Assembly: GCA_916048095.2 (NCBI GenBank)
Contig: OU696574.1
Coordinates: forward strand, 6,111,587-6,175,586
Source: Sacculina carcini
Taxonomy: Eukaryota > Arthropoda > Thecostraca > Sacculinidae
Direction of reading: 5' to 3'
DNA: 64,000 bases
The notes beneath the pieces are model-generated. The model did no database searches and had not been told where the DNA came from. It worked only from the letters and a program-made list of their open reading frames with translations. Both the position numbers and the translations under genes were made by a program. Below are positions 4,571 through 41,356 of this stretch, piece by piece. Every line of letters begins with the position of its first letter. Positions within the stretch are counted from its first letter, which is position 1.

Positions 4571-4581
4571 GCTGGGGGAGA
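4571..4581 (+). promoter_or_regulatory. Polypurine tract of the left LTR element
   Basis: A purine run (GGGGGAGA core) lies just before a TGT-starting segment and 47 bases after the pol stop. This is the usual place and composition for the plus-strand primer of an LTR retrotransposon. Confidence 0.55.
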
Positions 4582-5398: not shown

Positions 5399-5730
5399 TG
5401 TAGCGGAGTCGTTAGGCGACGCAATGCTGAGATGTTAGGCATCGCGCCGCCTCGCTACACCAGTGAAACAGTACTCTCGCGATAGTTTATTTGACGACTG
5501 ATGAATTACATGCCTCATACACACAAATACACACACACATACAAACACGCCAGATGCCGCAGCCAGTGCCCGTGGCGGCGCCTGGCGGAAACGTCCGCAA
5601 ACGCTTGAAGCCACGCCCAGTGGCGCGATGCTCTTGCAAGCCAGCAGCGCGTGAGCGCTCTGGAGAGAGCGGAGAGAGTGCAGCCACGTGGTGTGTAGGC
5701 AGCGGTGCCTTGCTGATACACCGCGCTACA
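5399..5730. mobile_element. Solo-LTR-like insertion with 4-bp target duplication
   Basis: Repeat copy 2 lacks this 332-bp GC-richer block, so it is a clean insertion. It starts TGTAGCGGAG and ends CCGCGCTACA, giving short inverted termini with TG...CA ends, and is flanked by ACAC at 5395-5398 and 5731-5734. This fits a solo LTR; a small DNA transposon is the alternative. No coding sequence is seen. Confidence 0.65.
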
Positions 5731-6633
5731 ACACTTTGGAAAATTACAAATTATACCGCATTGTAGAAAACAAAATTTCCAGCAAGATAGTATATTTTAT
5801 TTTAACGTGTGACAAGTAGTTACTGAGAAATAGGTAGAAAAATGAATACATTTTAGTCGCCCGGTGTTCAAGTGCAATTTTGGATGTATTTGAGAATGTT
5901 TTACAATTTTACACCTTTTTTGTATCATTTGTGGTTATAAATTATATTTTTTCTTGTAGAACACTAAATTCTCTACATAATAGTATACTTTTTATAGCTC
6001 TAACTTTGGTGATTTATGAGGAATAGATAGCGGAATATTGACCAAAATATTCGCGTATTTCAGTGCTAATTTTGCCATTTTGACTTTGTCATTTTGACTT
6101 CACACCGCCGTAACTTTTTTTTATTACACTCTGAAAAATATAAAATTATATCGTGTTGTAGAAAACAAAATTCCCAGCATGATGGTATTATTTATTTAGA
6201 TGTGTGAAATTTAGTTGCTGAGAAATAGAGAAAAAGGTAAATACAATGGGACGCGTTGAGTTTAAATAAAATTTTGAATGTAGATTGAAATTTTGTCGCT
6301 TTTACATATTTTAGATTCAATGTTTGGATATGAATAATAACCTATTTTGTAGAACGAAAAATTTTCTACACAGTGGTATACTTTGTATTGCTTTACCATT
6401 CTTGGTTTAGGGAATCTTGATGGCAGAATATTGACCAAAATTTTCGCATTTTTCAGGGTTCATTTTGTCTTTTCACCGCTATAACTTTTTTGATTTCATT
6501 TTAAAATTTAAAATTTAGCCTAAAGTGTAGACAAGCAAACTTCCAACGTGATGGTATAAATTGTTAGCAGGTACGCCAGGTGGTGGTTGAGTAGTAGCTG
6601 ATAGAAAATGGACCAAGGAGGGTGGGACACACA

Positions 6634-8511
<1,878 letters not shown>

Positions 8512-9284: not shown

Positions 9285-9518
9285 TGTTGGGAGTTTGTCT
9301 AAAATTGATTATTGTCGTTGTGTGGGTCGAAACTGACGGGGGGGAGACAATTGCGGCTGGGAGACAACGTGGGTTTTTTGTGGTTATTGCTCTGTGATTT
9401 ATTGTGAATATTCCTGATATCTTGCGTTACGTAACACGTTAAGAAATACTTTACGAGGTCTAGCGTTACCTGTTTTTGCGCGAATACACGTTGATAACTT
9501 GTGCGCGGCCTTTGAACA
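9285..9518 (+). repeat. 5' LTR
   Basis: 234 bp, TG...CA ends, appears base-identical to 13871-14104. It should carry the promoter of the element; no clear TATA box was found. Confidence 0.95.
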
Positions 9519-12500
9519 TGGCGCAGCCGCACAGCGAACCTCAAACGTCCTCACCTATACGGCCCTCACCGCTTCCGCGGACATCAGAACCGTTTGCGTG
9601 GCTCGGAAAAGCTTCCCAACCGCAGAGACTAGACGTCTCCGTCGACAAAGAGGTGTCCCTCAGGGCCTGGAGACGGCGCTGGGACGATTTTTTTCTGCTC
9701 AGCGGTCTGTCAGCAACCAGCCGCGATGTACAAATGGCCGCTTTACGAGCGTGCCTCAGCGACGACACGCTGAAGGTGGTAGAAAATTTTGATTTTGCCG
9801 AGGGCGAGGAAAATGACGTTTCAACGGTCGTCAGAAAAATTTCCGATTATATCGTTGGACAAACAAACGAGGTACTGGAACGCAAATATTTCAATTCACG
9901 CAGTCAAAATCACGGCGAAAATTTCGATGATTTCTTCACGAGCCTCAAAGACTTAGCGGCAAGGTGCAATTTTTGCGAGACATGCAAGGAGTCGCTGATT
10001 CGGGATCGCATTGTTATGGGCCTGCGCGACGGCGCCACTATCCAAAAATTGTGCGCGATCCCAAAACTTGGCCTGAAGACGGCCATAGATATTTGCAGAG
10101 CCGAAGAGGCTGCCAACCGAGACGCCTCAACAATCATTGGTCACCAACTGAATAAAGTGTCAAATGCAGCGACCGGCGGCACAACCACCAAAGTCCAGCA
10201 ACGACACAAGTGTTCGTGGTGCAGCGGCCCGTGGCACACACATGTCAAGGACTGCCCGGCGAGAAATTCTGTGTGCAACAATTGTGGAAAGCGCGGGCAT
10301 TTCGCGAAAGCGTGCCGACAACGACACAAGACTCAAGTGACAACCATTATCGCTACCATGTCGGCCACACACGCGCCGAAGGTGAGTGTTACCGTGTGCA
10401 CTCCTGATGCTCGCGCGCAGATAATGGCACTGCCGGATTCGGGCGCCGACATCTCCGTGGCCGGGTTGGATGCTTTGAACGAGCTCCACATCGCCACCAG
10501 AGACCTCGAGCCACCGGAAGGACAACCCAAACTGGCAGATCAGTCCTCAGTCACAACCGTAGGTGTTTTCGACGCCACAGTGTATTGTGGCCAACGTTGC
10601 ACACAAACACGTTTCCATGTGCTCCCCGGTGCACAGGGACTGGTACTGTCCTGGTTTGCCGCACGTCAACTGGGATTTTTGCCAGAAGATTACCCAAGAC
10701 AAGTGTCCACGCTTCAAACGGCACTCACGCCGCCACCGACGCCGTGCGCTCGCCGGCAGACAGCGCCGCCACCGACGCCGCGCGCTCGCCGGCAGACAGC
10801 GCCGCCACCGACGCCGCGGGCAAGCCGGCAGACAGCGTCGCCACCGACGCCGCAGGCCAGCCGGCAGACAGCGTCGCCACCGACGCCGCGGGCAAGCCGG
10901 CAGACAGCGCCGCCACCGACGCCGCGGGCCAGCCGGCAGACAGCGCCGCAGCCATCGCAGCGCACCGGCCGACAGATGCCACAACAATCAATCGAGGACA
11001 GCAGGACAACGGTCAACACCGCCATGAGCGACAGCCTGACACAGCAGCTTGTGGACGAATTTCCACGTGTGTTCGACGGTCAAGTAAGGTCAATGCCCGG
11101 CGAGAAATTCAGAATCGTACTGCGTGACGACGCACGACCGTTCTGTGTGACGACACCGCGACGCGTACCATTTGCTCTACGAGAGAAACTCCAACAAGAG
11201 TTAGACACATTGCAGCGCAATGGGATAATATCACCCACCACCTGTGCTACGGAGTGGTGTGCGCCAATAGTGGTGACGCCAAAAAAGAACAGCGACGACA
11301 TTCGTTTATGTGTTGACTTGTCTCACCTAAACAAGTACGTGGTGCGGGAGCGATACCAGAGCGAAACACCCGCAGAAGCAGTCTCGTCGATCGCTCAGAA
11401 GGATGCACGCTGGTTCACCGTTTTTGACGCGCTGAAGGGGTACCACCAATGCCCACTTGACAAAGACAGCCAACTGCTAACAACATTCATCACACCTTTT
11501 GGTAGGTATCGGTTTCTGCGTGCTCCGTATGGTATTAACAGTATATCTGAGCATTATAACCGAAGGATGACTGAGTGTTTTACAGGGCTTCAGCGTTTCG
11601 CCAGAGTGGTGGACGACATCGTACTGTATGACCGAGACCTGGACGATCACGTCGCTCACGTGAAACAGTTTCTCCAGAGGTGTGCCGAAGCGGGGGTGTC
11701 TCTCAACAAACGAAAATTTCGCGCGGCTCAAAAGCGAGCAAAGTTTGCCGGTTATGTTGTGGATGAAGAAGGCTATCGGTTGGATCCTTCACTCACCGAC
11801 GCGATTGCGTCCTTTCCGACACCCACGCACATTTCGGAACTGCGCTCGTTCTGTGGTCTATCCAACCAAGTTGCGTCGTTTTCGACCGAAATATCGGCGT
11901 TGTTGCAGCCGCTAAGACCACTGTTGAAGACCCGCAATGAATTTATGTGGGACTCGGTGCACGACCGCGCTTTCGAACGCGTCCGCGACGCATTATCATC
12001 ACCAAAAACGCTCGCGTTCTTTGACCCCGCGAGTCCGACAACGCTGACAACCGACGCCAGCAGACTGAACGGACTTGGCTTTGTGCTCAGCCAGAAGCAG
12101 AAAGACAACAACTGGAAGGTGGTGCAAGCCGGTTCCCGCTTTCTCAGCGACGCCGAGACACGATACGCTGTCATCGAGCTGGAGGCATTGGCGGTAGCAT
12201 GGGCCATGCAGAAATGCCGACAGTTTCTCCTCGGACGGCACAATTTTGACGTCGTCGTGGACCACCGACCACTGCTGGGGATCTTCAAATCGAGGCGGCT
12301 GGACGAAATCGAGAACCCGCGACTTCAACGACTCCGTCTAAAAACAATGGAGTATAATTTCTCCATTTCTTGGTGCAAGGGCGCCGAGAACAACGCGGCA
12401 GACGCCTTGTCAAGGTCTCCTGTCTGCCAGCCAACCAAAGAAGACGAGGTCGCAGAAGATTCGTCATCGCTTTCGATCTGTGCACTACATTGTTCTTCCG

Positions 12501-13843
12501 CACATGAGGAGCAAGTGAACATACGGCTGCAGGAAGTACAGGCAGCCACCGAGGCCGACATGGAAATGAGGACACTCAGGGGAGTCATAAAGGACGGCTT
12601 CCCAGCGACGAAAAGGGAACTCCCCGAAATCATCAGGGAGTACTGGCCTAAACACACGGAACTGACGGAGGAAGATGGACTTGTTCTGTGTGGATGTCGT
12701 TTAGTCATTCCTCGCAGCATGCGAAAAAGTATACTACTGATGCTACACGACGGCCATCAAGGTCAAGAGCGCACCAAGGCCCGAGCCAGGCGTGTAGTAT
12801 ACTGGCCCGGTATTGACCGCGACATAGATGCGACGACAAGGTCCTGCGAGCCGTGCCAGCAGGCCCTGCCATCACAGCAACAGGAAACATACCGAGCGCA
12901 CGCCAGACCTCAACGACCGTTTCAGGTCATCTCAGCGGACTTCTTCCAATATGCTGGACGCCACTTCCTGGTGGTCGTAGATCACTTGTCAGGTTGGCCC
13001 ACAGTCGCGCAGTTGGGAGTAGACACGTCTGCTCGAAAACTAATATCGACCATGCAGTCTCTTTTCTGTTTTTCAGGCGCACCAGACGTGATGTACAGTG
13101 ACGGTGGACCGCAGCTAACTTCAACGGCGTTCCACAGCTTCCTGCAACACTGGGGAGTGAAGCACCGAACATCGTCACCGGGCTATGCCCAATCGAACGG
13201 GCAAGCGGAGGCGGCAGTGAAGAGCATGAAAAAGCTCATCGCTCACTGCTGGTGCAACAGGTCAAGGACACTGCAGCAAGATCAGTGGACGCGCGGCATT
13301 TTGCAGTATCGCAACACGCCGGCTGCCAACGGACTATCTCCAGCAGAAGTAGTTTTCGGTCGCGCCGTACAAGACGCCGTGCCGGCTCATCGACGCGCCT
13401 TCGCAGAGAAGTGGCACGCGGTTGCGGACGCCGCCGATCGAGTCCCGCAGCGCACCGTGGAGCGGTACAACAGTGCGGCACGGGATCTGCATACGTTGGC
13501 GGTGGGAAACCACGTGTCTGTACAGGACTTTCCCACGCGACGGTGGTCACGGTATGGTGTTATTGTTGCCGTAAACCCAGACCGGCAATATTTGGTCCGG
13601 CTTTCAAGCGGTCGTGTGCTGTGCCGGAATAGGCGATTCATCCGCCGACGCTATGCACATGCCACCGCCGACAATACGGAGGACGCGACGGTCCCGTCAC
13701 CGCCGTCCACTAGGATGGCAACCACACCAGCGGCCACTCCGTATCCTGATAATCCCTCTGCTGCAGCCAGACATGCGCCGACTCCACCGCGCAGAACGAG
13801 GCGCGTTCGAAGACCTACCCGACGCCTCATTGAATCCATGTGA
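9518..13843 (+). CDS. Gag-pol polyprotein of the complete LTR retrotransposon
   Basis: I start at ATG 9518-9520 (MAQPHSEP), giving 1441 codons; the frame stays open into the LTR, but no ATG lies upstream in it. Domains in order: capsid-like gag (about 40-200); two zinc knuckles from Cys232 and Cys253; aspartic protease DSGAD at 307; a proline-rich region of 12-residue repeats (about 403-487); reverse transcriptase (about 540-760) with VVDD, Asp 699-700, where many relatives have YxDD; RNase H with TDAS (Asp 846); integrase finger H1077, H1080-1081 region, C1110, C1113; integrase core Asp1141, Asp1195, Glu1231 (D-x35-E); and a basic C-terminal tail. All expected catalytic residues are present and nothing is interrupted. 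It makes the proteins that copy element RNA to DNA and insert it. Confidence 0.95.
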   Translation: MAQPHSEPQTSSPIRPSPLPRTSEPFAWLGKASQPQRLDVSVDKEVSLRAWRRRWDDFFLLSGLSATSRDVQMAALRACLSDDTLKVVENFDFAEGEENDVSTVVRKISDYIVGQTNEVLERKYFNSRSQNHGENFDDFFTSLKDLAARCNFCETCKESLIRDRIVMGLRDGATIQKLCAIPKLGLKTAIDICRAEEAANRDASTIIGHQLNKVSNAATGGTTTKVQQRHKCSWCSGPWHTHVKDCPARNSVCNNCGKRGHFAKACRQRHKTQVTTIIATMSATHAPKVSVTVCTPDARAQIMALPDSGADISVAGLDALNELHIATRDLEPPEGQPKLADQSSVTTVGVFDATVYCGQRCTQTRFHVLPGAQGLVLSWFAARQLGFLPEDYPRQVSTLQTALTPPPTPCARRQTAPPPTPRARRQTAPPPTPRASRQTASPPTPQASRQTASPPTPRASRQTAPPPTPRASRQTAPQPSQRTGRQMPQQSIEDSRTTVNTAMSDSLTQQLVDEFPRVFDGQVRSMPGEKFRIVLRDDARPFCVTTPRRVPFALREKLQQELDTLQRNGIISPTTCATEWCAPIVVTPKKNSDDIRLCVDLSHLNKYVVRERYQSETPAEAVSSIAQKDARWFTVFDALKGYHQCPLDKDSQLLTTFITPFGRYRFLRAPYGINSISEHYNRRMTECFTGLQRFARVVDDIVLYDRDLDDHVAHVKQFLQRCAEAGVSLNKRKFRAAQKRAKFAGYVVDEEGYRLDPSLTDAIASFPTPTHISELRSFCGLSNQVASFSTEISALLQPLRPLLKTRNEFMWDSVHDRAFERVRDALSSPKTLAFFDPASPTTLTTDASRLNGLGFVLSQKQKDNNWKVVQAGSRFLSDAETRYAVIELEALAVAWAMQKCRQFLLGRHNFDVVVDHRPLLGIFKSRRLDEIENPRLQRLRLKTMEYNFSISWCKGAENNAADALSRSPVCQPTKEDEVAEDSSSLSICALHCSSAHEEQVNIRLQEVQAATEADMEMRTLRGVIKDGFPATKRELPEIIREYWPKHTELTEEDGLVLCGCRLVIPRSMRKSILLMLHDGHQGQERTKARARRVVYWPGIDRDIDATTRSCEPCQQALPSQQQETYRAHARPQRPFQVISADFFQYAGRHFLVVVDHLSGWPTVAQLGVDTSARKLISTMQSLFCFSGAPDVMYSDGGPQLTSTAFHSFLQHWGVKHRTSSPGYAQSNGQAEAAVKSMKKLIAHCWCNRSRTLQQDQWTRGILQYRNTPAANGLSPAEVVFGRAVQDAVPAHRRAFAEKWHAVADAADRVPQRTVERYNSAARDLHTLAVGNHVSVQDFPTRRWSRYGVIVAVNPDRQYLVRLSSGRVLCRNRRFIRRRYAHATADNTEDATVPSPPSTRMATTPAATPYPDNPSAAARHAPTPPRRTRRVRRPTRRLIESM
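9519..9536 (+). promoter_or_regulatory. Candidate primer-binding site inside the ORF
   Basis: TGGCGCAGCCGC follows the 5' LTR directly. TGG at this place pairs with the CCA end of a tRNA. The site also encodes residues 2-6 of gag-pol, because the ATG uses the last LTR base. The tRNA identity was not determined. Confidence 0.65.
10725..10960 (+). repeat. 36-bp tandem repeat inside gag-pol
   Basis: About six and a half units of 36 bp, each coding for a version of APPPTPRASRQT, lie between protease and reverse transcriptase. The unit keeps the frame, so copy number can change without breaking the ORF. The segment is proline- and arginine-rich and probably a flexible linker. Confidence 0.9.
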
Positions 13844-19127: not shown

Positions 19128-19136
19128 TCATGCGTT
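19128..19136 (+). repeat. 9-bp target duplication, left
   Basis: TCATGCGTT immediately outside the left arm, identical to 33827-33835. Confidence 0.88.
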
Positions 19137-19436
19137 GAGTCTAGTACCTTTGGTGCGACATCCACTTCACGCGACGCTGTTTTGCACTGTACATACCTGT
19201 TACGTCATTGACTTCCGAACGAGTGACGTATTTAGGTCTAGCAGTGATGCCAGCAAGCCATAGAGAAATTGTAAGCCACTTCGTTCGACACCTTGGTTTA
19301 TCACCAGATTTCCCGGTTGACCACTCATACTCGACAGTGTATCTTTGGTGCGCGTCTTCTGTGTTCGTTCTCGGTCTTTGGCGTGTGTTCTGCAGTGGTC
19401 ATTTCGATGGTACGTGGTTATCTTTCTTACTAGTAG

Positions 19437-21180
19437 TATATTGGTATTAAGTATGGTCTGAATTGACTGCTATATCAGTACTCTCTATAATCATGTTTCC
19501 TTTTCATTTTTGATTGTGAGATATATTGGTATTAAGTATGGTCTGAATTGACTGCTTTATCAAGAGTCTCTATAATCATGTTTCCTTTTCACCTTGATTA
19601 TGAGATATATTGGTATTAAGTATGGTCTGAATTGACTACTTTACCAAGAGTCTCTATAATCATGTTTTCTTTTCACCTTGATTATGAGATATATTGGTAT
19701 TAAGTATGGTCTGAATTGACTGCTTTACCAAGAGTCTCTATAATCATGTTTTTTTCACCTTGATTATGAGATATATTGGTATTAAGTATGGTCTGAATTG
19801 ACTGCTTTACCAAGAGTCTCTATAATCATGTTTCCTTTTCACCTTGATTATGAGATATATTGGTATTAAGTATGGTCTGAATTGACTGCTTTACCAAGAG
19901 TCTCTATAATCATGTTTTCTTTTCACCTTGATTATGAGATATATTGGTATTAAGTATGGTCTGAATTGACTGCTTTACCAAGAGTCTCTATAATCATGTT
20001 TCCTTTTCACCTTGATTATGAGATATATTGGTATTAAGTATGGTCTGAATTGACTGCTTTACCAAGAGTCTCTATAATCATGTTTTCTTTTCACCTTGAT
20101 TATGAGATATATTGGTATTAAGTATGGTCTGAATTGACGGCTTTACCAAGAGTCTCTATAATCATGTTTCCTTTTCACCTTGATTATGAGATATATTGGT
20201 ATTAAGTATGGTCTGAATTGACTGCTTTACCAAGAGTCTCTATAATCATGTTCTCTTTTCACCTTGATTATGAGATATATTGGTATTAAGTATGGTCTGA
20301 ATTGACTGCTTTACCAAGAGTCTCTATAATCATGTTACCTTTTCACCTTGATTATGAGATATATTGGTATTAAGTATGGTCTGAATTGACTGCTTTACCA
20401 AGAGTCTCTATAATCATGTTCTCTTTTCACCTTGATTATGAGATATATTGGTATTAAGTATGGTCTGAATTGACTGCTTTATCAAGAGTCTCTATAATCA
20501 TGTTTCCTTTTCACCTTGATTATGAGATATATTGGTATTAAGTATGGTCTGAATTGACTGCTTTATCAAGAGTCTCTATAATCATGTTTCCTTTTCATTT
20601 TTGATTATGAGATATATTGGTATTAAGTATGGTCTGAATTGACTGCTTTATCAATACTCTCTATAATCATGTTTCCTTTTCATTTTTGATTATGAGATAT
20701 ATTGGTATTAAGTATGGTCTGAATTGACTGCTTTATCAATACTCTCTATAATCATGTTTCCTTTTCACCTTGATTATGAGATATATTGGTATTAAGTATG
20801 GTCTGAATTGACTGCTTTATCAATACTCTCTATAATCATGTCTCCTTTTCATTTTTGATTATGAGATATATTGGTATTAAGTATGGTCTGAATTGACTGC
20901 TTTACCAAGAGTCTCTATAATCATGTTTCCTTTTCATTTTTGATTATGAGATATATTGGTATTAAGTATGGTCTGAATTGATTGTTTTACCAATACTCTC
21001 TATAATCATGTTTCCTTTTCATTTTGATTATGAGATATATTGGTATTAAGTATGGTCTGAATTGACTGCTTTATCAATACTCTCTATAATCATGTTTCCT
21101 TTTCATTTTTGATTATGAGATATATTGGTATTAAGTATGGTCTGAATTGACTGCTTTATCAATACTATCCATAATCAATT
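19437..21180 (+). repeat. 84-bp tandem array, left arm, 21 copies
   Basis: Successive GAGATATATTGG sites are 84 bases apart (19518, 19602, 19686). I counted 21 copies of GGTCTGAATTG. The copies differ mainly at a TTTTCACCTTG versus TTTTCATTTTTG site and at CCAAGAGTC versus TCAATACTC, so at least two subtypes exist. Confidence 0.95.
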
Positions 21181-21600
21181 TTCAGCCACCTGATTCATTG
21201 TGATCCTGACGTGCTTATTTGTCACATTAATAGACAGTATTTGTCGTGTTATGTATGCTGGTGTTGACATGTAACCTGATCGCATGCCGTGTTTTGTTTT
21301 GTTTTTCAGTTGAGTCGCCGGTGCGCTGTGCATGCAGTCTCGGGCTCATCACAGTACTTGATCGAGGCTGGGTGGAGGATTGATCATCTCGTCGCCCACA
21401 TCGAGATTAAGAACGGTCTTGTATCGTGCTGTATGTAGTGTCTGGTTTCTGGATGTGGCAGGGCAACTGACATGCATTCTCACTGCATGCGTGTTCAGCC
21501 GACGACGACGGTGATTACTAATTGTTCAGTTATCACGTCCACGTTTCAATTGTTTTCTCGTGTGTTGGCTTGCGTGCATGTGCTGTAGTGTTTGGTGACG

Positions 21601-21648
<48 letters not shown>

Positions 21649-23777
21649 TTGATTCAGTGGATCGTGTATTGTTATGCAGTAGTGTTACGAGATCGCAGCT
21701 TCGCTCGTACTGTTTTTGCTTCATTATTCAAGTCATGTTTTATATCACCAGTGTTCTTGCACTATTATCTCTTGGCTCGGTTATAGACATTAATTCGTCT
21801 CAAATTAGCACTTTATTGCATTATATTTTTTGCATCGAATTTTCGTTTTTGCGTTTTTTCTTACCTCGTTCGTTCTTACCTCGCCTTGTTTGTGCGATTT
21901 TTTCAGCTCCACACAAAACTTCAAAACCCCACTTCTTCCTAACTTAATTTTGCCTATATCCGCCCGAGTGGTATATTTCGCTTGAAATTCAATATAAATG
22001 TTTGTGAACTTTTTGCAAACAGTGCTGAATTTTCTCAACTGTTCACCCGTTCTACTTTATCTCTCAATATGTGTTTATTATTGTGTCTTTTTCTCTGTTT
22101 CTCATATTGCTTCATGTTATCATATAGTGTCATGTGTCAGTGTTTATTGCACCATGACTGTTTTTGTTTGTGTGCTTTGTTCACTAATTGCGTGCTTGTA
22201 TAATATGCTACGTTGTTACTGTTGTTTCGTGGTCTTATGACATGCTTGTATTGTGCATATATTGGCTGGCTATGATATGTATAAGACATTCAGGGTAACA
22301 TTATTATATCGTGCGTTATGAGCATTTGGTGGACCTGATTTTTGTTGTAATCATTTGTAATCGTCGTCTCTGTTCTTACATGTCTTCTAACCAATACATT
22401 GTTACATATTATATTGTTTAGTGGCGGACAGAGTGCGTAGCGAAACGAAGAGTTTAATTAAGTACATCGTCGAGCACATGTGCGTATTCCAGAAGCGTTT
22501 TTCTAGTGTGTACGTGTAGTTTACCAATATTGTAAATGAAATTCATATTGATTTTCCTATCAGTGTTTGTTTTTCACATTGGCTCTACACACCGTGTCAT
22601 TTAGTTGAACTTTTGTGGCGTTGGTCTCATCACGGAGCTTCACTGGACCAATTTTCTGGACCGACTATATGTTGCGACATACACGACTGCAGATCAGATT
22701 GTAATGACACACAACCACATTGCTGCAATCTCAGAGAAGACTGTGCGCTTGTGTGCTTGGTAACAGTGTTTTGTATGTTTTGTAACAGCGGAGCGACCTC
22801 AAAACTACACACAAATATACATGCACACACACATGAATATTTACATTTTCATTTCGTTCAATTTCTACACAATTTTTAAGTTGTGCAGACAGTACAATAA
22901 TTGCAATGTGGACTTGAACAAACGTACACACATACATGTACGTTCATTCATAACAACATACAAACACGTACATTCGGCGTGAGTGTGGATTTATCACTGT
23001 CACTGACAGGTCCGTTAGAATCCTTCGGCATTTCGGCAAGCAAGCATTTCGGCATCAAGACAGAACGTGATGTATAGCCAAAAGGACCGCACGCACATGT
23101 ATACAAGTATAAGCAGTCAGGCAGGCTGGAAAACATGGCTGACAGCCACTAACCCTTCTGCTTTTCAAAACAGGTCTTATTTTCACCATGTATGACCGAT
23201 ATTCCACACCTGCTGACCGATATACACATATCCACACGCACTCACACACAGGCAAACAGAACACCGACCCTCGTCTTCCCCTACACACGCGTACACGCGC
23301 ACAAACACACACAGATACACACAAACATACACCGCCGGCACAGGCACAAAGGCCAGTGACAGCGGCGATATAACATGATAACAGAAAGACGTGCGAATGC
23401 AAACGACAGTTATGCATAGAAAAACGATATAAATATTTGTATAACATTTGAATATATATAATATTTGAATAGCATTGGTGGACCAAAACAATGCAAATTC
23501 ATCAAATCCTACAATACAAGCTATATACAATGCCAGTAATTATTTACAACAATTATAACATGCACATTCAATATCTCATTCACAGCGAATACTTCGGCTT
23601 TATGCAGAATTTTCCGATCATCAGATATTTGGAGCAAGTGTTTAAATATTTGATATTTAAAGATAATATAAGATATTAATATTGATTGATGTTAGATAGA
23701 TAAGATAGATCATGTAAATGGACAGATAGATATTGTAGATTAGATATTGTAGATTAGATAGATAAGATAGTTTTTGA

Positions 23778-23990
23778 TTATTTATTAGATATTGATATAA
23801 CCTGAAATGCAAAATATTTGAAGCAAGTGTTTTTCAACCAGTTCTTGAAGACATTCAGAGATCGGGACGATTTTACGTAGAATGGATATTCATTATACAA
23901 GCTGGGAGCATAAAACATCGAATATAATGGGTGTGGCGGGTAGGAAACTTCAACAAGGCATAACAAGGCAATACAACTTATGTATGGCAT
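23778..23990 (-). pseudogene. C-terminal scrap of a non-LTR retrotransposon, left arm
   Basis: A 70-residue minus-strand frame ends SRSLNVFKNWLKNTCFKYF, like the last residues of CR1/Jockey-type ORF2, where a short FxxxLKxxLF motif precedes the stop. An ATCT-rich tail follows. The same piece is in the right arm at 29154-29366, and part of it in the spacer near 26770. The family call rests on this motif alone. Confidence 0.4.
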
Positions 23991-24225
23991 TTATAATATC
24001 CTATACATATATTTTATTTTGATATATAAATTTAATTATCACTGTGTAAATTTCTGGTAAGTGGTTTTTCGTTGCGCATTACGACTCACATTGTAGCTAA
24101 GGGTAAGGATTTAGAGACGAGAGCGTCGGTTTTGCGCACGCATACATGTCTTTTCGCGCACGCACATTTTTACTTGTAACTTCATGCGGTTCTTGTCGCT
24201 AGTAGATCCTCGTTGTCAATTATAT

Positions 24226-24257
<32 letters not shown>

Positions 24258-24270
24258 AGTGTGTGTGTTT

Positions 24271-24352
<82 letters not shown>

Positions 24353-25866
24353 TCTTACACAGTCTAACAACATAGATTTTACTTTGATTTACGCACATAG
24401 AATCACCCACAAATGCACACACACGCACACACCCACAAACACACATACACATGGACGAAGTTTCGAGCAATCATTAAATTGATTGACTGTATGTATAGAA
24501 TCTATGTGAAAAACGAAAACACAGAAACAATGTTATTTACAAATACAATAAGTGTGTTTGCATGTGTGTATGTGTTTGTGTGTGAGTGTGTGTGAGTGTG
24601 TATGTATGTGCGATCGCTCCGCTTCTACAAGCGTGTCAGAACAGTTCGCAGAAATGAAGCAGAAATCGCAGATCGCAGGTGAGTTTCTAGCAATCGCTCA
24701 ACTGAATGACAGTGTGTAGAATGAAAGTGGAAAACAAACACTAATAGAAAGACCAATGTTAATTACATTTACAATATTGGTAAGCTACACATACACGCTC
24801 GAAAAAAGGTTCTGGAACACGCACATACACGACGATATACTAAACACTATAATTAAACGCTCTATTTTACTATGCGTTCTGTCCGCCACTGTGCATTTGC
24901 AAACACTGCTGAGTAATTTAAACACTCGCTGCAATACGAGTTCTCGTACATGTTCAGCACACAGATACGCACACCTGTACACACCAATGTGTCGTTGGTG
25001 ACAGGCACACACACACATGTACAGTCTAGATCACAATAGGTTTATTATTCTAGATCACAATAGCTGGTATCTCGTTGTTTACATTAGTTTGCATATAAGC
25101 AGTAGGAGGCCAGAACGTCGGTCTTGTGCACGCAAATTTACATTCATTACTGTAAACACAATGGGTATCCACGCTGATTGTTGCTAGTTGCTCGAGTAAT
25201 AGGGACAATGCTTGCATAGTAACCACCGTGGGGACGTGTATTTTATAGTTGTATATTATAGTTATTGCAATGCACTGTGCTGACCTTTTAGTACTCGTAA
25301 ATTAAGAGTTGGTGTCTAGCTTGGAGCTGAATAGCGTAATATGCAGCGCTTGTTAGACGTATTGAAGCAGCTGTTTTTAACATTCTGGGTCGTATACACA
25401 AATGGTAGAATGTGTTTGGAAAGAGAGATAGTTGAGATAGATTCTGAGGGGATGTACAGCTGAGAGGATGTGTTTGAGACCGACGCAATGCATTCATCTG
25501 TTTGAACTGGACGTCAATAGTTAACGCGGCACACCACTCTAAGAGGCCTGCACGACATCATGATTATAAAACTAGATCACATTGACAAACTTTTTCGGTT
25601 TGTAGCCTTGCAAACTGTAACAAACTGTTTTCAACAAACTGATCACAGTAACAAACTGTTATATTTGGTACCGTGCTTCACGACCAAACAGCACTGTTAT
25701 AGCAGCGCAGGCTTACAAAAATGTTCATGGTTTAGACGAATATCATAATATACCGATATTTGATATTGTCTGTTTATAGATGAATATTCATTTATTTGCT
25801 CACACACACACACACGCAGACACACACTCGTCTCTTGCCTCTTTTCGGAAGTTACAAATATTTCGC

Positions 25867-27280
<1,414 letters not shown>

Positions 27281-28795
27281 AGCGAAATATTTGTAACTTC
27301 CGAAAAGAGGCAAGAGACGAGTGTGTGTCTGCGTGTGTGTGTGTGTGAGCAAATAAATGAATATTCATCTATAAACAGACAATATCAAATATCGGTATAT
27401 TATGATATTCGTCTAAACCATGAACATTTTTGTAAGCCTGCGCTGCTATAACAGTGCTGTTTGGTCGTGAAGCACGGTACCAAATATAACAGTTTGTTAC
27501 TGTGATCAGTTTGTTGAAAACAGTTTGTTACAGTTTGCAAGGCTACAAACCGAAACAGTTTGTCAATGTGATCTAGTTTTATAATCATGATGTCGTGCAG
27601 GCCTCTTAGAGTGGTGTGCCGCGTTAACTATTGACGTCCAGTTCAAACAGATGAATGCATTGCGTCGGTCTCAAACACATCCTCTCAGCTGTACATCCCC
27701 TCAGAATCTATCTCAACTATCTCTCTTTCCAAACACATTCTACCATTTGTGTATACGACCCAGAATGTTAAAAACAGCTGCTTCAATACGTCTAACAAGC
27801 GCTGCATATTACGCTATTCAGCTCCAAGCTAGACACCAACTCTTAATTTACGAGTACTAAAAGGTCAGCACAGTGCATTGCAATAACTATAATATACAAC
27901 TATAAAATACACGTCCCCACGGTGGTTACTATGCAAGCATTGTCCCTATTACTCGAGCAACTAGCAACAATCAGCGTGGATACCCATTGTGTTTACAGTA
28001 ATGAATGTAAATTTGCGTGCACAAGACCGACGTTCTGGCCTCCTACTGCTTATATGCAAACTAATGTAAACAACGAGATACCAGCTATTGTGATCTAGAA
28101 TAATAAACCTATTGTGATCTAGACTGTACATGTGTGTGTGTGCCTGTCACCAACGACACATTGGTGTGTACAGGTGTGCGTATCTGTGTGCTGAACATGT
28201 ACGAGAACTCGTATTGCAGCGAGTGTTTAAATTACTCAGCAGTGTTTGCAAATGCACAGTGGCGGACAGAACGCATAGTAAAATAGAGCGTTTAATTATA
28301 GTGTTTAGTATATCGTCGTGTATGTGCGTGTTCCAGAACCTTTTTTCGAGCGTGTATGTGTAGCTTACCAATATTGTAAATGTAATTAACATTGGTCTTT
28401 CTATTAGTGTTTGTTTTCCACTTTCATTCTACACACTGTCATTCAGTTGAGCGATTGCTAGAAACTCACCTGCGATCTGCGATTTCTGCTTCATTTCTGC
28501 GAACTGTTCTGACACGCTTGTAGAAGCGGAGCGATCGCACATACATACACACTCACACACACTCACACACAAACACATACACACATGCAAACACACTTAT
28601 TGTATTTGTAAATAACATTGTTTCTGTGTTTTCGTTTTTCACATAGATTCTATACATACAGTCAATCAATTTAATGATTGCTCGAAACTTCGTCCATGTG
28701 TATGTGTGTTTGTGGGTGTGTGCGTGTGTGTGCATTTGTGGGTGATTCTATGTGCGTAAATCAAAGTAAAATCTATGTTGTTAGACTGTGTAAGA

Positions 28796-28873
<78 letters not shown>

Positions 28874-28886
28874 AAACACACACACT

Positions 28887-28918
<32 letters not shown>

Positions 28919-29153
28919 ATATAATTGACAACGAGGATCTACTAGCGACAAGAACCGCATGAAGTTACAAGTAAAAATGTGCGTGCGCGAAAAGACATGT
29001 ATGCGTGCGCAAAACCGACGCTCTCGTCTCTAAATCCTTACCCTTAGCTACAATGTGAGTCGTAATGCGCAACGAAAAACCACTTACCAGAAATTTACAC
29101 AGTGATAATTAAATTTATATATCAAAATAAAATATATGTATAGGATATTATAA

Positions 29154-29366
29154 ATGCCATACATAAGTTGTATTGCCTTGTTATGCCTTGTTGAAGTTTC
29201 CTACCCGCCACACCCATTATATTCGATGTTTTATGCTCCCAGCTTGTATAATGAATATCCATTCTACGTAAAATCGTCCCGATCTCTGAATGTCTTCAAG
29301 AACTGGTTGAAAAACACTTGCTTCAAATATTTTGCATTTCAGGTTATATCAATATCTAATAAATAA
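29154..29366 (+). pseudogene. C-terminal scrap of a non-LTR retrotransposon, right arm
   Basis: Mirror copy of 23778-23990, 70 residues, with the same ending and ATCT-rich tail. Confidence 0.4.
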
Positions 29367-31481
29367 TCAAAAACTATCTTATCTATCTAATCTACAATAT
29401 CTATCTGTCCATTTACATGATCTATCTTATCTATCTAACATCAATCAATATTAATATCTTATATTATCTTTAAATATCAAATATTTAAACACTTGCTCCA
29501 AATATCTGATGATCGGAAAATTCTGCATAAAGCCGAAGTATTCGCTGTGAATGAGATATTGAATGTGCATGTTATAATTGTTGTAAATAATTACTGGCAT
29601 TGTATATAGCTTGTATTGTAGGATTTGATGAATTTGCATTGTTTTGGTCCACCAATGCTATTCAAATATTATATATATTCAAATGTTATACAAATATTTA
29701 TATCGTTTTTCTATGCATAACTGTCGTTTGCATTCGCACGTCTTTCTGTTATCATGTTATATCGCCGCTGTCACTGGCCTTTGTGCCTGTGCCGGCGGTG
29801 TATGTTTGTGTGTATCTGTGTGTGTTTGTGCGCGTGTACGCGTGTGTAGGGGAAGACGAGGGTCGGTGTTCTGTTTGCCTGTGTGTGAGTGCGTGTGGAT
29901 ATGTGTATATCGGTCAGCAGGTGTGGAATATCGGTCATACATGGTGAAAATAAGACCTGTTTTGAAAAGCAGAAGGGTTAGTGGCTGTCAGCCATGTTTT
30001 CCAGCCTGCCTGACTGCTTATACTTGTATACATGTGCGTGCGGTCCTTTTGGCTATACATCACGTTCTGTCTTGATGCCGAAATGCTTGCTTGCCGAAAT
30101 GCCGAAGGATTCTAACGGACCTGTCAGTGACAGTGATAAATCCACACTCACGCCGAATGTACGTGTTTGTATGTTGTTATGAATGAACGTACATGTATGT
30201 GTGTACGTTTGTTCAAGTCCACATTGCAATTATTGTACTGTCTGCACAACTTAAAAATTGTGTAGAAATTGAACGAAATGAAAATGTAAATATTCATGTG
30301 TGTGTGCATGTATATTTGTGTGTAGTTTTGAGGTCGCTCCGCTGTTACAAAACATACAAAACACTGTTACCAAGCACACAAGCGCACAGTCTTCTCTGAG
30401 ATTGCAGCAATGTGGTTGTGTGTCATTACAATCTGATCTGCAGTCGTGTATGTCGCAACATATAGTCGGTCCAGAAAATTGGTCCAGTGAAGCTCCGTGA
30501 TGAGACCAACGCCACAAAAGTTCAACTAAATGACACGGTGTGTAGAGCCAATGTGAAAAACAAACACTGATAGGAAAATCAATATGAATTTCATTTACAA
30601 TATTGGTAAACTACACGTACACACTAGAAAAACGCTTCTGGAATACGCACATGTGCTCGACGATGTACTTAATTAAACTCTTCGTTTCGCTACGCACTCT
30701 GTCCGCCACTAAACAATATAATATGTAACAATGTATTGGTTAGAAGACATGTAAGAACAGAGACGACGATTACAAATGATTACAACAAAAATCAGGTCCA
30801 CCAAATGCTCATAACGCACGATATAATAATGTTACCCTGAATGTCTTATACATATCATAGCCAGCCAATATATGCACAATACAAGCATGTCATAAGACCA
30901 CGAAACAACAGTAACAACGTAGCATATTATACAAGCGCGCAATTAGTGAACAAAGCACACAAACAAAAACAGTCATGGTGCAATAAACACTGACACATGA
31001 CACTATATGATAACATGAAGCAATATGAGAAACAGAGAAAAAGACACAATAATAAACACATATTGAGAGATAAAGTAGAACGGGTGAACAGTTGAGAAAA
31101 TTCAGCACTGTTTGCAAAAAGTTCACAAACATTTATATTGAATTTCAAGCGAAATATACCACTCGGGCGGATATAGGCAAAATTAAGTTAGGAAGAAGTG
31201 GGGTTTTGAAGTTTTGTGTGGAGCTGAAAAAATCGCACAAACAAGGCGAGGTAAGAACGAACGAGGTAAGAAAAAACGCAAAAACGAAAATTCGATGCAA
31301 AAAATATAATGCAATAAAGTGCTAATTTGAGACGAATTAATGTCTATAACCGAGCCAAGAGATAATAGTGCAAGAACACTGGTGATATAAAACATGACTT
31401 GAATAATGAAGCAAAAACAGTACGAGCGAAGCTGCGATCTCGTAACACTACTGCATAACAATACACGATCCACTGAATCAA

Positions 31482-31529
<48 letters not shown>

Positions 31530-31949
31530 CGTCACCAAACACTACAGCACATGCACGCAAGCCAACACACGAGAAAACAATTGAAACGTGGACGTGATAA
31601 CTGAACAATTAGTAATCACCGTCGTCGTCGGCTGAACACGCATGCAGTGAGAATGCATGTCAGTTGCCCTGCCACATCCAGAAACCAGACACTACATACA
31701 GCACGATACAAGACCGTTCTTAATCTCGATGTGGGCGACGAGATGATCAATCCTCCACCCAGCCTCGATCAAGTACTGTGATGAGCCCGAGACTGCATGC
31801 ACAGCGCACCGGCGACTCAACTGAAAAACAAAACAAAACACGGCATGCGATCAGGTTACATGTCAACACCAGCATACATAACACGACAAATACTGTCTAT
31901 TAATGTGACAAATAAGCACGTCAGGATCACAATGAATCAGGTGGCTGAA

Positions 31950-33530
31950 AATTGATTATAGATAGTATTGATAAAGCAGTCAATTCAGACCATACTTAAT
32001 ACCAATATATCTCATAATCAAAAATGAAAAGGAAACATGATTATAGAGAGTATTGATAAAGCAGTCAATTCAGACCATACTTAATACCAATATATCTCAT
32101 AATCAAAATGAAAAGGAAACATGATTATAGAGAGTATTGGTAAAACAATCAATTCAGACCATACTTAATACCAATATATCTCATAATCAAAAATGAAAAG
32201 GAAACATGATTATAGAGACTCTTGGTAAAGCAGTCAATTCAGACCATACTTAATACCAATATATCTCATAATCAAAAATGAAAAGGAGACATGATTATAG
32301 AGAGTATTGATAAAGCAGTCAATTCAGACCATACTTAATACCAATATATCTCATAATCAAGGTGAAAAGGAAACATGATTATAGAGAGTATTGATAAAGC
32401 AGTCAATTCAGACCATACTTAATACCAATATATCTCATAATCAAAAATGAAAAGGAAACATGATTATAGAGACTCTTGATAAAGCAGTCAATTCAGACCA
32501 TACTTAATACCAATATATCTCATAATCAAGGTGAAAAGGAAACATGATTATAGAGACTCTTGATAAAGCAGTCAATTCAGACCATACTTAATACCAATAT
32601 ATCTCATAATCAAGGTGAAAAGAGAACATGATTATAGAGACTCTTGGTAAAGCAGTCAATTCAGACCATACTTAATACCAATATATCTCATAATCAAGGT
32701 GAAAAGGTAACATGATTATAGAGACTCTTGGTAAAGCAGTCAATTCAGACCATACTTAATACCAATATATCTCATAATCAAGGTGAAAAGAGAACATGAT
32801 TATAGAGACTCTTGGTAAAGCAGTCAATTCAGACCATACTTAATACCAATATATCTCATAATCAAGGTGAAAAGGAAACATGATTATAGAGACTCTTGGT
32901 AAAGCCGTCAATTCAGACCATACTTAATACCAATATATCTCATAATCAAGGTGAAAAGAAAACATGATTATAGAGACTCTTGGTAAAGCAGTCAATTCAG
33001 ACCATACTTAATACCAATATATCTCATAATCAAGGTGAAAAGGAAACATGATTATAGAGACTCTTGGTAAAGCAGTCAATTCAGACCATACTTAATACCA
33101 ATATATCTCATAATCAAGGTGAAAAGGAAACATGATTATAGAGACTCTTGGTAAAGCAGTCAATTCAGACCATACTTAATACCAATATATCTCATAATCA
33201 AGGTGAAAAAAACATGATTATAGAGACTCTTGGTAAAGCAGTCAATTCAGACCATACTTAATACCAATATATATCTCATAATCAAGGTGAAAAGAAAACA
33301 TGATTATAGAGACTCTTGGTAAAGTAGTCAATTCAGACCATACTTAATACCAATATATCTCATAATCAAGGTGAAAAGGAAACATGATTATAGAGACTCT
33401 TGATAAAGCAGTCAATTCAGACCATACTTAATACCAATATATCTCACAATCAAAAATGAAAAGGAAACATGATTATAGAGAGTACTGATATAGCAGTCAA
33501 TTCAGACCATACTTAATACCAATATACTAC
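31950..33530 (-). repeat. 84-bp tandem array, right arm, 19 copies
   Basis: Mirror of the left array with 19 copies counted. The order of subtypes parallels the left array, but two units are missing. Confidence 0.95.
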
Positions 33531-33826
33531 TAGTAAGAAAGATAACCACGTACCATCAAAATGACCACTGCAGAACACACGCCAAAGACCGAGAACGAAC
33601 ACACACGACGCGCACCAAAGATACACTGTCGAGTATGAGTGGTCAACCGGGAAATCTGGTGATAAACCAAGGTGTCGAACGAAGTGGCTTACAATTTCTC
33701 TATGGCTTGCTGGCATCACTGCTAGACCTAAATACGTCACTCGTTCGGAAGTCAATGACGTAACAGGTATGTACAGTGCAAAACAGCGTCGCGTGAAGTG
33801 GATGTCGCACCGAAGGTACTAGACTC

Positions 33827-33835
33827 TCATGCGTT
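33827..33835 (+). repeat. 9-bp target duplication, right
   Basis: TCATGCGTT immediately outside the right arm, identical to 19128-19136. Confidence 0.88.
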
Positions 33836-34348: not shown

Positions 34349-36600
34349 AGACAACAACAACAACAACAACAGTGTGTATTTGGTATAGCGCCCATCATCA
34401 TAGGCGCGCAGACGAGTACTTATACAGAAAAACATGAAGTATATACTGGCAATGCGAGCATGGGATAATACGATAATAATATAGAGCTCGATCACAAAAC
34501 AACAAAATAAAACGCGGATTAAATTTAGGAGTAAACGCAGAATCAAACAAACAACTACATAGAAGAGAGATCAGAGGGAGGCGAAAGGAGTCAAGGCGTG
34601 AGTGGTGGGATCAAAGGATAGATCAAAAAGATATTTACGAAGATAAGCAGCAAATGAGCGATATGACAACGATGAGGTGATGTGAGAGGGGAGAGAGTTG
34701 TAAAGACGCGGACCGAAAAAAGGAGATAGATTTGGAAGACCACGCGGACTCATTTAAAGCGCGAGGGCAGGCTAAAGGGACAGGATGTCGAGAAGAGGGG
34801 GTTTCAAAGAGAGAAAGTAAGGCATAGAGATACCTAGGTTTAGTGGGACAGTGCAACAGTTTAAAGATTATGGAGCAAATTTTGAAGTGAATTCTAGATT
34901 TGATGGGAAGCCAGCGGAACTTGGAGAGATAAGGAGAAGTATGGCGGCAGAAAGCAGGATATAAAACAAAACGGCAGGATTGGTTCATCACACGCTGGAG
35001 AATTTTCAAGGAAGATTTAGGACACTTGAAGTGGAGCGAGCTGCAGTAATCCAGTCTAGAAAAGATGAGTGATTGAACAAGCTTGATAGAAGAGGGCTGG
35101 TCGAGGCATGGACGGATAGGATAGAGAGAGCGGAGTATAAGGCGACAGATGCGAGCAGTAGCAAGAATATTGGCAGAGAAGGAAAGTGAGGAATCAAAGA
35201 TAATGCCAAGGTTTCTAACAGACGAAGAGAGAGATATAGGCAAAAGAGGAGGAGACAAACGAGGAGGGTGAAGAGCAAGAAATTCTGATTTATCAGTATT
35301 CAGAAAAAGTCGACGGGAGGAGATCCAAGAAGATATATCAGAAAGTATACCAGACAGAAGAGCAGGGTCAGAAAAGGGACAAGGTATATATAATTGGATG
35401 TCATCAGCATATATGTGAAAAGGGATAGACCAGCGTCGAAGGATAGGACAGAGAGAGGACATATAAAGATTGAAAAGAAGAGGACCAAGGATAGACCCTT
35501 GAGGTACACCAGAGGTAAGATGGATCGAATTAGAGACGGAAGAGTTGAACTGGACAGAGTAAGATCGATTATGCAAATAGGAGCGAAGCAAGGAGAGCGC
35601 GGAATCAGAAACACCAATGTGAGAAAGGTCTTTAATGAGAATTTCATGATCTACAAGGTCAAATGCTGAGCTTAAGTCAAGAAGGACAAGGAGAATGAAT
35701 TTTCGAAAGGAGAATGACGACAAGATACCTTCAGTGACCGAGATGAGGACAGATTCAGTACTATGAGAAGGACGAAATCCGGATTGGTGAATGTCAAGGA
35801 CGTTACAAATAAAAGGAGATAACTGAGAAAAGATGGCAGATTCCAGGAGTTTGGAGGAAAAACTAAGGAGGGATATATGACGGTAGTTACAGCATAAGGA
35901 AGGTTCAAGCGAGGGTTTCTTGAGGATAGGGCGAACATAGACGTGCTTATCAGCAAGAAAATTTCCATGTAATAAGGAGGAGTTAATAAGATGGAGTAAA
36001 TAAGGAGACAGGGTGTCGACAGCAGGAGCAATTATACTGAAGTTAATCGGATCAGGAGGAGACGAGAGAAATTTACGGGAGAAGAGAAGAGATAAGAAGT
36101 CAGAAATTTCAAGATGAGAAAAGGATGAGAATTTGCATAGGGAGGTGGTATGTGTGACGAGGAAAGCAGAAGAAGGAATTCTAGATTGGGCGGAAATGAT
36201 TTTGCTTGTGAAATAGGAGGAAAGCTCGTTGGCGGTTAGAGAGGAAACAGCTGAGGGCGAGCGAAGGCCAGCAAGGGAGTTGAGTGTGTTCCAGAGAGCT
36301 TTAGGAGATCGAGAAAGAGAAGAAAGTCGAGACAAGTAATATGCTTGCTTGGAGGATGCTAGAGAAGAAATATATAATGAGCGAGCAGAGCAAAAAGTAG
36401 ACCAGTCACAAGAGAGGCGAGTGCGTACGCTCCAACGCTGCCAGGTACGCTCCAACGCCCTTGAACGACGTTTCAGACGATCAAGGTTAGGATTATTCCA
36501 AGGAGACGAACGAGGACGAGAAGAACGGAGATTCAGAGGGAACAAATGGTTGTTAATGAGGGATAGAGTAGAAAAGAGGAAACAAGCGAACACATCTAAA
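34349..36600 (-). mobile_element. CR1/L2-like non-LTR retrotransposon, copy A, 5' truncated
   Basis: The minus-strand element ends in (TTG)n at 34350-34371 after a 3' sequence GCGCTATACCAAATACA, which is also found at the 3' end of copy C. The 5' end is cut at about 36600, where the 3' tail of copy B begins. The endonuclease region is missing, which is usual for 5'-truncated insertions of this type. Confidence 0.82.
34635..36593 (-). CDS. Reverse transcriptase ORF of CR1/L2-like copy A
   Basis: 652 codons with no stop. The N-terminal basic linker reads PRSSPWNNPNLDRLKRRSR, typical of the stretch between endonuclease and RT. RT motifs then follow: PILKKP, YRHISLLSFSSK, HQSGFRPSHST, LLDLSSAFDLVDH, SGVPQGSILGPLLF and YADDIQLY, with the two catalytic Asp. 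A C-terminal region with the usual RLDYCSSL and RWLPIKSRIHFK segments completes it. The ORF lacks the endonuclease, so the true protein was longer and this copy is a truncated but undamaged RT. It would copy element RNA at the genomic target. The ATG used is an internal Met, not the natural start. Confidence 0.9.
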   Translation of the reverse strand: MFACFLFSTLSLINNHLFPLNLRSSRPRSSPWNNPNLDRLKRRSRALERTWQRWSVRTRLSCDWSTFCSARSLYISSLASSKQAYYLSRLSSLSRSPKALWNTLNSLAGLRSPSAVSSLTANELSSYFTSKIISAQSRIPSSAFLVTHTTSLCKFSSFSHLEISDFLSLLFSRKFLSSPPDPINFSIIAPAVDTLSPYLLHLINSSLLHGNFLADKHVYVRPILKKPSLEPSLCCNYRHISLLSFSSKLLESAIFSQLSPFICNVLDIHQSGFRPSHSTESVLISVTEGILSSFSFRKFILLVLLDLSSAFDLVDHEILIKDLSHIGVSDSALSLLRSYLHNRSYSVQFNSSVSNSIHLTSGVPQGSILGPLLFNLYMSSLCPILRRWSIPFHIYADDIQLYIPCPFSDPALLSGILSDISSWISSRRLFLNTDKSEFLALHPPRLSPPLLPISLSSSVRNLGIIFDSSLSFSANILATARICRLILRSLYPIRPCLDQPSSIKLVQSLIFSRLDYCSSLHFKCPKSSLKILQRVMNQSCRFVLYPAFCRHTSPYLSKFRWLPIKSRIHFKICSIIFKLLHCPTKPRYLYALLSLFETPSSRHPVPLACPRALNESAWSSKSISFFRSASLQLSPLSHHLIVVISLICCLSS

Positions 36601-40045: not shown

Positions 40046-40103
40046 TATGCAGTGTCTTTGTCTATCTTGTTCATTGTGTCAACAGATTGACTTGTCTTAT
40101 GTT

Positions 40104-41356
40104 TAGGGCTGTCAAAAAAGTAACCTAAAAACCAGAAAAAAGTAACTTTATTTTCGAGAAAAAGTAACCTAAAAAATTACCTATGAGTTGTAATGTTATT
40201 ATTACTTTTATATCGCTTTATCATATGTTTATCACACCTTTTCTGATTAGTGCGCTATATCAAATACACGGTTTGTTTGTTCTTTGTTTGTGAACATAAA
40301 AAGTAACCTAATAACCTATAAAAAGTAACCTAAAATAACCTAACCTTCGTAAAAATAATCTTCAAAAAAGGTCAATTTCTGCTTGCAGTTCTGAAGGAAG
40401 AAAACACACCAGTCCTTCTTTTCTATCCTCTTTCCGAGTTGGTACTATTTTTCCACCCTCTCTCCGATCTGGTACCATTTTTACAACAAACCACCAAAAA
40501 TCACTTAATATTATTTGGCTAACATCGCAAAAAGGAGCATAACTATCAAAATGCAACTTAAAGTGGAAAGCTAATACAAATGCGAAATACACTACTTTCT
40601 AATGTAATTATTTTTAGTAATGGTCGCAATAATGCTCTTTATAATGTTTCAATAGAACTTCTTATCAAATAGAACGTACTACAGCTTGTATATTTGTGTG
40701 AGCCTAAACACTACAAGCATATGTAGCACCCTGTGCTCACAGTCTTATAAATGTCACACGTGGGAAAATGGCGCTATCTCACGCCCTGAAAATCACGTGC
40801 CAATTCCTGTTCAAGTCAATACGTACTGACAAGTGCTACAGTGCAGTATCTGGTATAGAGAGCTCACACATCGTACTATACCACGCTCCAAACATCTCAC
40901 GACACCCTTCGGTTCGTGGACATTTCCTAAAATGGAATGACGCTATCCTCTGTACCGAAAAACGTATAAATATCGAGTAGCACAGATATTAAGGTGAATA
41001 CCAATTGCTTAATCCTAACAGCAGAAACTTTGACATTTCTTGATCTTCAGACCTAATATTCCATCTCTTTTCATATTTTATCCTAATATATACAGTTTTT
41101 GTGCCTCATATCTGTAAAAAGTCACCAAACTTCGTGGTAAACTTATCTAATAACCAGAAAAATAACAAAAGGTAACATGACGATAAAAAGTAACCTAAAA
41201 GCAAAAAAAGTAACCTAACGATGAAAAGGTAACTTTTGGTAACCTAATAACTTTTTTAATAATTATCGTACACCATTTTTTCATGCAGATTTAGGCAGCT
41301 TATGAAAAAGTAACCTTTAGGTGAAAAAGTAACTTTATTAACTTTTGACAGCCCTA
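40104..41356. mobile_element. hAT-like non-autonomous element, copy 1
   Basis: 1253 bp beginning TAGGGCTGTCAAAA and ending TTTTGACAGCCCTA, with CTTATGTT repeated exactly at 40096-40103 and 41357-41364. The 8-bp duplication supports hAT. Both ends are packed with AAAGTAACCTAA-type motifs in inverse orientation, probably transposase-binding sites. No transposase gene is present. Copy 2 is at 49375-50807. Confidence 0.93.

Follow-up and report, generated by a model that had tools for sequence, protein, structure and literature searches.

The question raised by a 14,690-bp palindrome in the genome of Sacculina carcini is whether it is a mobile element at all and, if so, what moved it and why its two arms are so alike. 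It lies in a stretch of 64,000 nucleotides of contig OU696574.1 (GenBank assembly GCA_916048095.2, positions 6,111,587 to 6,175,586), which was analysed as a whole and is called the window here; positions refer to the window unless they carry another label or are counted within the element. The original prediction, made from the letters of this stretch alone, had regarded the palindrome as a non-coding foldback element that was inserted by true transposition and depended on a transposase from elsewhere. The evidence presented below makes it highly probable that the element belongs to the Mutator (MULE) superfamily of DNA transposons, as a non-autonomous foldback the arms of which seem to be kept alike by arm-to-arm repair.

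The exact 9-bp target-site duplication of the element occurs in the window at its two borders only, the sequences that open and close the element were found once each (Table 1), and the terminal 12 bp are identical at both ends; the palindrome, its ends and the duplication are as had been predicted. The arms, 19137–25867 (6,731 bp) and 27281–33826 (6,546 bp), enclose a centre of 1,413 bp. In BLAST comparisons 19606–25867 matched the reverse complement of 27281–33526 at 99.06% over 6,267 columns, and 19137–21014 matched 31947–33826 at 97.4%. Each arm is composed of an outer end, an array of 84-bp units and an inner arm. The unequal arrays of the original prediction were recovered with 21 anchored units on the left and 19 on the right, the left array having two units more and the others pairing in order with 0–2 edits each. 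Arrays excluded, the inner arms (element positions 2042–6731, 4,690 columns) differ by two substitutions, a 14-bp indel and a 4-bp indel. Six reading frames of the element with a length of 100 aa or more, (AC)n frames being left out, contained no Pfam family at E ≤ 0.01, and the best match of the family's transposase pieces, described below, to ten foldback copies reached only E = 0.38. On these grounds the possibility that the window copy has a longer version with coding content was rejected, and its description as non-coding was upheld.

Other copies, which the original prediction had proposed to look for, were found elsewhere in the genome. The first 300 bp of the element recurred with 97–100% identity at 40 scored places among 101 candidates. 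A 21-bp motif from the end, searched with a tolerance of 3 mismatches, had 88 genome matches (43 forward, 45 reverse) compared with 4 for a control pattern read backwards, while a motif of the inner arm and one of the loop had 70 and 29 matches, respectively, compared with none in the control; chance origin was ruled out by these counts. After exclusion of three end matches (C25:4764419, 4764480 and 4764500), each of the other 85 was joined to the nearest following end that faced inward, over a distance of no more than 40 kb, which gave 29 end pairs spaced 4.3–35.3 kb apart and left 27 of the 85 ends unpaired; the long pairs C3:5639231, C3:6638577 and C7:4166623 may be composites under this rule. 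The inner-arm motif was present in both orientations inside 26 of the 29 pairs and the loop motif inside 21, three pairs (the window, C24:6822260 and C2:7055944) holding the latter in both orientations. Nine more copies were read over their whole length, and together with the window copy all ten displayed the foldback structure, i.e., inverted arms, 84-bp arrays at both sides and a short middle.

Both junctions were read in 12 copies, namely the nine further full copies, the window copy, C10 and C22. Exact 9-bp duplications, each different from the others, flanked ten of these (the window copy, C20a, C2a, C2b, C4b, C25a, C24a, C4c, C2c and C10, the last with TGTGTGGGC), a length within the 8–11 bp of Mutator target sites. 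When the flanks of C4c were joined with one duplication retained, 30 of 52 match rows extended over the joint, with 20 bp or more to the left of the insertion point included and with 85–98% identity; these rows represent related empty sites within a dispersed repeat. True transposition, as claimed originally, is borne out by the duplications and these sites. That a trapped hairpin, an inverted segmental duplication or a misjoin was mistaken for a transposon, as the great length and near perfection of the palindrome might suggest, has a probability close to nil in view of the different duplications at ten of the 12 copies, the 29 end pairs and the C4c empty sites; the original dismissal of a hairpin stands.

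The Pfam family PF10551, the MULE-type DDE transposase, had 52 matches in the genome, and one of them, in C10, is a transposase gene between the ends of the family, as had been proposed as a target of the search. C10 is an end pair of 12,801 bp. Its left end has 187 bp in common with the window end and then diverges, and its right end is of the foldback type including the beginning of the array. The gene begins within the left end and is read towards the interior in two overlapping frames, the first with DGTF, the second with SDFE, C-x-x-H and NNGCE, motifs that were read by eye and which we take to be catalytic; since they are split over two frames, the reading frame is broken in the catalytic core. 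The second frame scored 39.9 bits for MULE at a cut-off of 27.6, the first had no significant match, and no PHD finger, a feature of the Rehavkus transposase, was detected in the two frames at E ≤ 1, the frameshift and about 0.2 kb beyond the read part leaving the protein incomplete. The inner-arm motif is present in C10 in both orientations (5285635, +; 5292738, −), and 5285394–5285639 is 97.6% identical to the innermost unit of the array together with the inner arm, so C10 is itself a foldback in its interior, where the transposase cassette takes the place of most or all of the left array. Given the two orientations of this motif, the idea was rejected that the foldbacks arose as a mirror image of half (the right one) of an autonomous element with one-sided structure.

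DNA relatives of the C10 gene were found on C7, where a partial gene of 95% identity over 1,160 bp contains a stop and is placed as in C10, about 0.8–1.9 kb inside an end, and on C8, where 22 of 24 match rows (64–80%) form a tandem cluster that is degenerate where read. This decayed cluster, C8:7391169–7438404, has spacings of about 6.54 and 4.07–4.09 kb. On C7, two ends of the family are arranged head to head at a distance of 36 bp (4166586 and 4166623), one backed by the partial transposase gene and the other being the end of a foldback pair.

As the ends of C10 are those of the family and enclose a MULE gene, the most suitable reading of the palindromes is that of non-autonomous foldbacks of the Mutator superfamily, in agreement with the comparison to Mutator and foldback elements drawn originally; that the transposase comes from elsewhere likewise holds for the window copy. 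Another superfamily with 8–9-bp duplications, e.g., Merlin or a P-like one, might have moved the family with the C10 gene as a passenger, given that the foldback form recurs in unrelated superfamilies, Galileo being P-like according to the accounts in PMC3169594 and PMC3573991, and that a single end pair with a MULE gene, of broken frame, was found. However, 9-bp duplications and long ends fit MULEs, for which PMC6446971 gives 8–11 bp, and the gene in C10 is directed from the end to the interior and has the same position in the partial C7, so that, for the copies with the interior read, this explanation appears very improbable.

The palindrome moves as a whole. In a tree of 20 arms from the ten fully read copies (C2a_L entered the tree and the pairing test from position 381, C4b_R as two pieces joined), the left arms of C2b and C4c clustered together and the right arms likewise. 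The duplications of these two copies differ, and their 500-bp flanks do not match on the same side; a repeat of 262 bp (86.6%) is shared between opposite sides. A deletion of element positions 4441–4665, confined to one arm, is common to C2a, C2b, C4c and C1a (four of ten copies); it was placed by BLAST coordinates, on which it rests because an exact-string check of the 4440/4666 junction gave nothing usable. The side-wise grouping and the common one-arm deletion together point to transposition of the palindrome as a unit.

Within each of the ten copies, the inner arms (1.7 kb) were 98.95–99.94% alike, with a mean of 99.33% compared with 98.47% under random pairing, and none of 20,000 pairings was as alike; the two arms of one copy joined in the tree in eight of ten copies. 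For the outer 300-bp ends, by comparison, the mean within copies was 98.40% vs 98.44% at random, with 13,562 of 20,000 pairings as alike. Expressed as the ratio of differences within to those between copies, the two halves of the outer end gave 1.00 and 1.06, and the steps from array to loop gave 0.20, 0.24, 0.40, 0.30, 0.36, 0.59 and 0.55, so the change was located at the 84-bp array. There, the outermost three units showed no clear likeness within copies (421, 598 and 1,231 of 5,000 random pairings as close), and the innermost unit did (18 of 5,000). The inner arms are thus made alike within each copy, and this effect stops in the array.

The window copy further differs from its relatives in the loop. 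Most copies read have a single-copy loop (element positions 5214–6903), whereas positions 5214–6731 are present in both arms of the window copy. At element position 8103 the sequence departs from the ordinary right arm, passes through about 40 bp of filler composed of repeats of neighbouring letters (CTGTTATAACGCAC, ATTCGCACGTCTTTC), with an 18-bp repeat recognised by Tandem Repeats Finder (TRF) across the junction at 27222–27264, and continues as an inverted copy of position 6731. The extra length is an inverted duplication of the loop. C24a has a separate inverted loop duplication, which its identity of 95.6–98.6% suggests to be older. The whole palindrome had been predicted to have transposed and then to have diverged, which is not borne out in this form: palindromes travel as units, while in place of divergence the arms look like the product of continuing arm-to-arm correction, and the loop duplication of the window copy may have formed after insertion.

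These features of the window copy, with two inner-arm substitutions in 4,690 columns, the same order of array units, a duplicated loop and filler at the join, would also be expected if palindromes were refolded at birth, i.e., if half an element was duplicated in inverted form anew, by sister-chromatid fusion or hairpin copying, and both identical ends then transposed with no continuing conversion; two inverted ends around any DNA would be a legal substrate. We consider this rather unlikely, although to be taken seriously. Outer ends within a copy are no closer than random ones, so a fresh half-duplication would need a later exchange of ends, and the one-arm deletion common to four copies shows that old palindromes were inherited in this form, among which C2a and C1a have arms that still pair within the copy.

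Several observations weigh against a Mutator foldback with arms under mutual repair. C1a and C22 lack a 9-bp duplication, the right end of C22 being altered. The search for empty sites, successful for C4c, found none for the window copy: its joined flanks matched nothing across the target except the two flanks themselves, of which the left is a diverged repeat (66–79% identity) and the right unique. Only two of the 52 MULE matches lay near family ends by comparison of positions (C10:5283464 and C7:4165012), and among the 20 loci that were read, a family end within the 1.5-kb flanks was present at C10 alone. No intact transposase was found, C10 being frameshifted in the catalytic core, C7 partial with a stop, and C8 degenerate. 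The arms of C2b and C4c do not pair within the copy in the tree. The number of array units differs between the arms as it does in random pairs (1,887 of 5,000), therefore conversion does not keep the arrays equal. Lastly, the concerted arms could also stem from assembly polishing, in which reads of both arms would be pooled and the consensus levelled while the ends beside unique flanks stayed correct. Such levelling, which would leave the reading as a transposon untouched, predicts a change of likeness between the outer ends and the inner arms, as was found; however, likeness peaks directly inward of the array and declines in the direction of the loop instead of being highest in the middle of the arm, and inverted loop duplications and arm-specific deletions would stay unexplained. 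Polishing was hence judged an unlikely cause.

For the preferred reading, a foldback moved by Mutator-type transposition and maintained by repair, the following course can be proposed. A MULE transposase of the C10 type would bind the ends, perhaps also the arrays, and cut and paste the palindrome in trans. A break in one arm would be repaired with the opposite arm of that element as the template, which would keep the inner arms alike, and where the copied tract ran on into the loop and was closed by end joining with filler, a longer palindrome such as the window copy would result. A repair gap over a C10-like transposase cassette, flanked by homology of end and inner arm, could leave a plain foldback; the reverse order, in which a foldback gained the cassette, would be possible as well.

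Foldback elements of the FB/NOF type in Drosophila have inverted ends with tandem repeats and 9-bp duplications, and the present family resembles them in structure, likened by description and not by sequence. Among the systems in the literature, Tm1 of root-knot nematodes (Mutator/Foldback), as described in PMC3169594, is similar in its composite inverted ends with tandem units unequal in number, in 9-bp duplications in most copies and in being mostly non-autonomous with a few copies that carry a MULE-type transposase. Unlike here, its units are of about 14 bp instead of 84 bp, and its transposase copy is 2.6 kb long with arrays in both inverted ends, while C10 is without most or all of the left array; the copies of the present family are mostly 10–18 kb long with arms of 4–6.7 kb. 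Rehavkus is characterised by a 9-bp duplication, ends of 26–400 bp and a minisatellite before the 3' end, and aphid Phantom by a minisatellite after the transposase gene (PMC6446971). By layout only, with the transposase on the left and the array before the right end, C10 matches either of them as there described, and its shared left end of 187 bp and the TGTGTGGGC duplication agree with the structure of Rehavkus; the palindromic interior does not. Galileo of the P superfamily shares long inverted ends with tandem repeats, the lack of a functional transposase, as far as the account in PMC3573991 extends, and ends that have grown longer as internal sequence became part of the inverted repeat. 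It differs in a P-type transposase and inverted ends of up to 1.26 kb, where the present family has a MULE gene in C10 and arms of up to 6.7 kb. Tetris of Drosophila virilis is similar in being a foldback with tandem units (of 220 bp) in its ends, 8–10-bp duplications and a suggested Mutator origin, and is set apart by description, as its unit differs and no transposase copy is known within the scope of PMC4079207. Structure and duplication match the Mutator/Foldback group, within which the family stands out by its size, its unit of 84 bp and its concerted arms.

The origin of the long arms of foldbacks is still argued, and loss of the transposase with gradual lengthening of the ends was proposed in the accounts of PMC3169594 and PMC4079207; for Galileo, Marzo and colleagues proposed a model of repair from the other end (PMC3573991). 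A broader reading, which we put forward tentatively and hold to be slightly less probable than its opposite, is that of a self-maintaining palindrome: inner arms would serve as templates for mutual repair and arrays would limit the exchange, so that each copy evolves in concert apart from its outer ends, the loop may be copied into an arm and the cassette erased. If true, giant foldbacks would be a by-product of arm-templated repair in a Mutator-type element with the transposase at one end and a minisatellite at the opposite one. A single genome contains a relative with a transposase, ordinary palindromes and loop-duplicated palindromes, with dated differences between arms, and since these forms coexist, conversion between them can be tested in each copy separately; the abrupt shift in arm likeness at a tandem array offers a natural test of where repair tracts in cis start and stop. 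Giant palindromes of this kind would likely be weak points for inversions and breaks.

As to the target sites, the flanks of C4c, C2b and C4b lie in or near one dispersed repeat, often as close inverted pairs (85–98%), and copies of this repeat stand on both sides of the C10 element (C10:5281210–5281831 and 5296560–5296898), so a target preference is possible. In the ten 9-bp duplications, 54 of 90 bases were G or C, compared with 42% in the window, and a leaning to GC-rich targets is possible as well. For the 84-bp unit, a single-stranded hairpin of −9.7 kcal/mol was predicted (z = −3.2 vs shuffles), and a role as a binding site or structure is conceivable.

Table 1. Position of the foldback element and its parts in the window.
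Feature	Position	Strand	Remark
Left target-site duplication TCATGCGTT	19128..19136	.	Exact repeat
Right target-site duplication TCATGCGTT	33827..33835	.	Exact repeat
Foldback element, 14,690 bp	19137..33826	.	Ends GAGTCTAGTACC / GGTACTAGACTC; family of 29 end pairs
Left outer end, 300 bp	19137..19436	+	First 187 bp 94% identical to C10 left end
Right outer end, 300 bp	33527..33826	-	4 differences vs left end
Left 84-bp array, 20.7 copies	19437..21177	+	TRF
Right 84-bp array, 18.7 copies	31953..33526	-	TRF
Left inner arm	21178..25867	+	21178–23857, arm part doubled in other copies; 24350–25867, loop of other copies
Right inner arm	27281..31952	-	2 substitutions and 2 indels vs left inner arm
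Centre of window copy	25868..27280	.	
(AC)n, 299.5 copies	26040..26638	.	TRF
Third arm stretch	26768..27239	-	97.5% to 23378–23854; right-arm start of ordinary copies
Junction with repeat-like filler	27239..27281	.	From ordinary right-arm start to inverted copy of 25867

The surroundings of the element are rich in other mobile elements, Pfam having recognised a Gypsy-type polyprotein, two reverse-transcriptase frames and two pieces of DDE_1/Tc5-type transposases (9476–13843, 34635–36593, 47557–48051, 51291–52193 and 53309–54100). Two further pairs of repeats, each of 0.94 kb, were found in the window, one inverted (5731–6671 and 55343–56280, 87.3%) and one direct (40103–40988 and 49374–50312, 86.7%).

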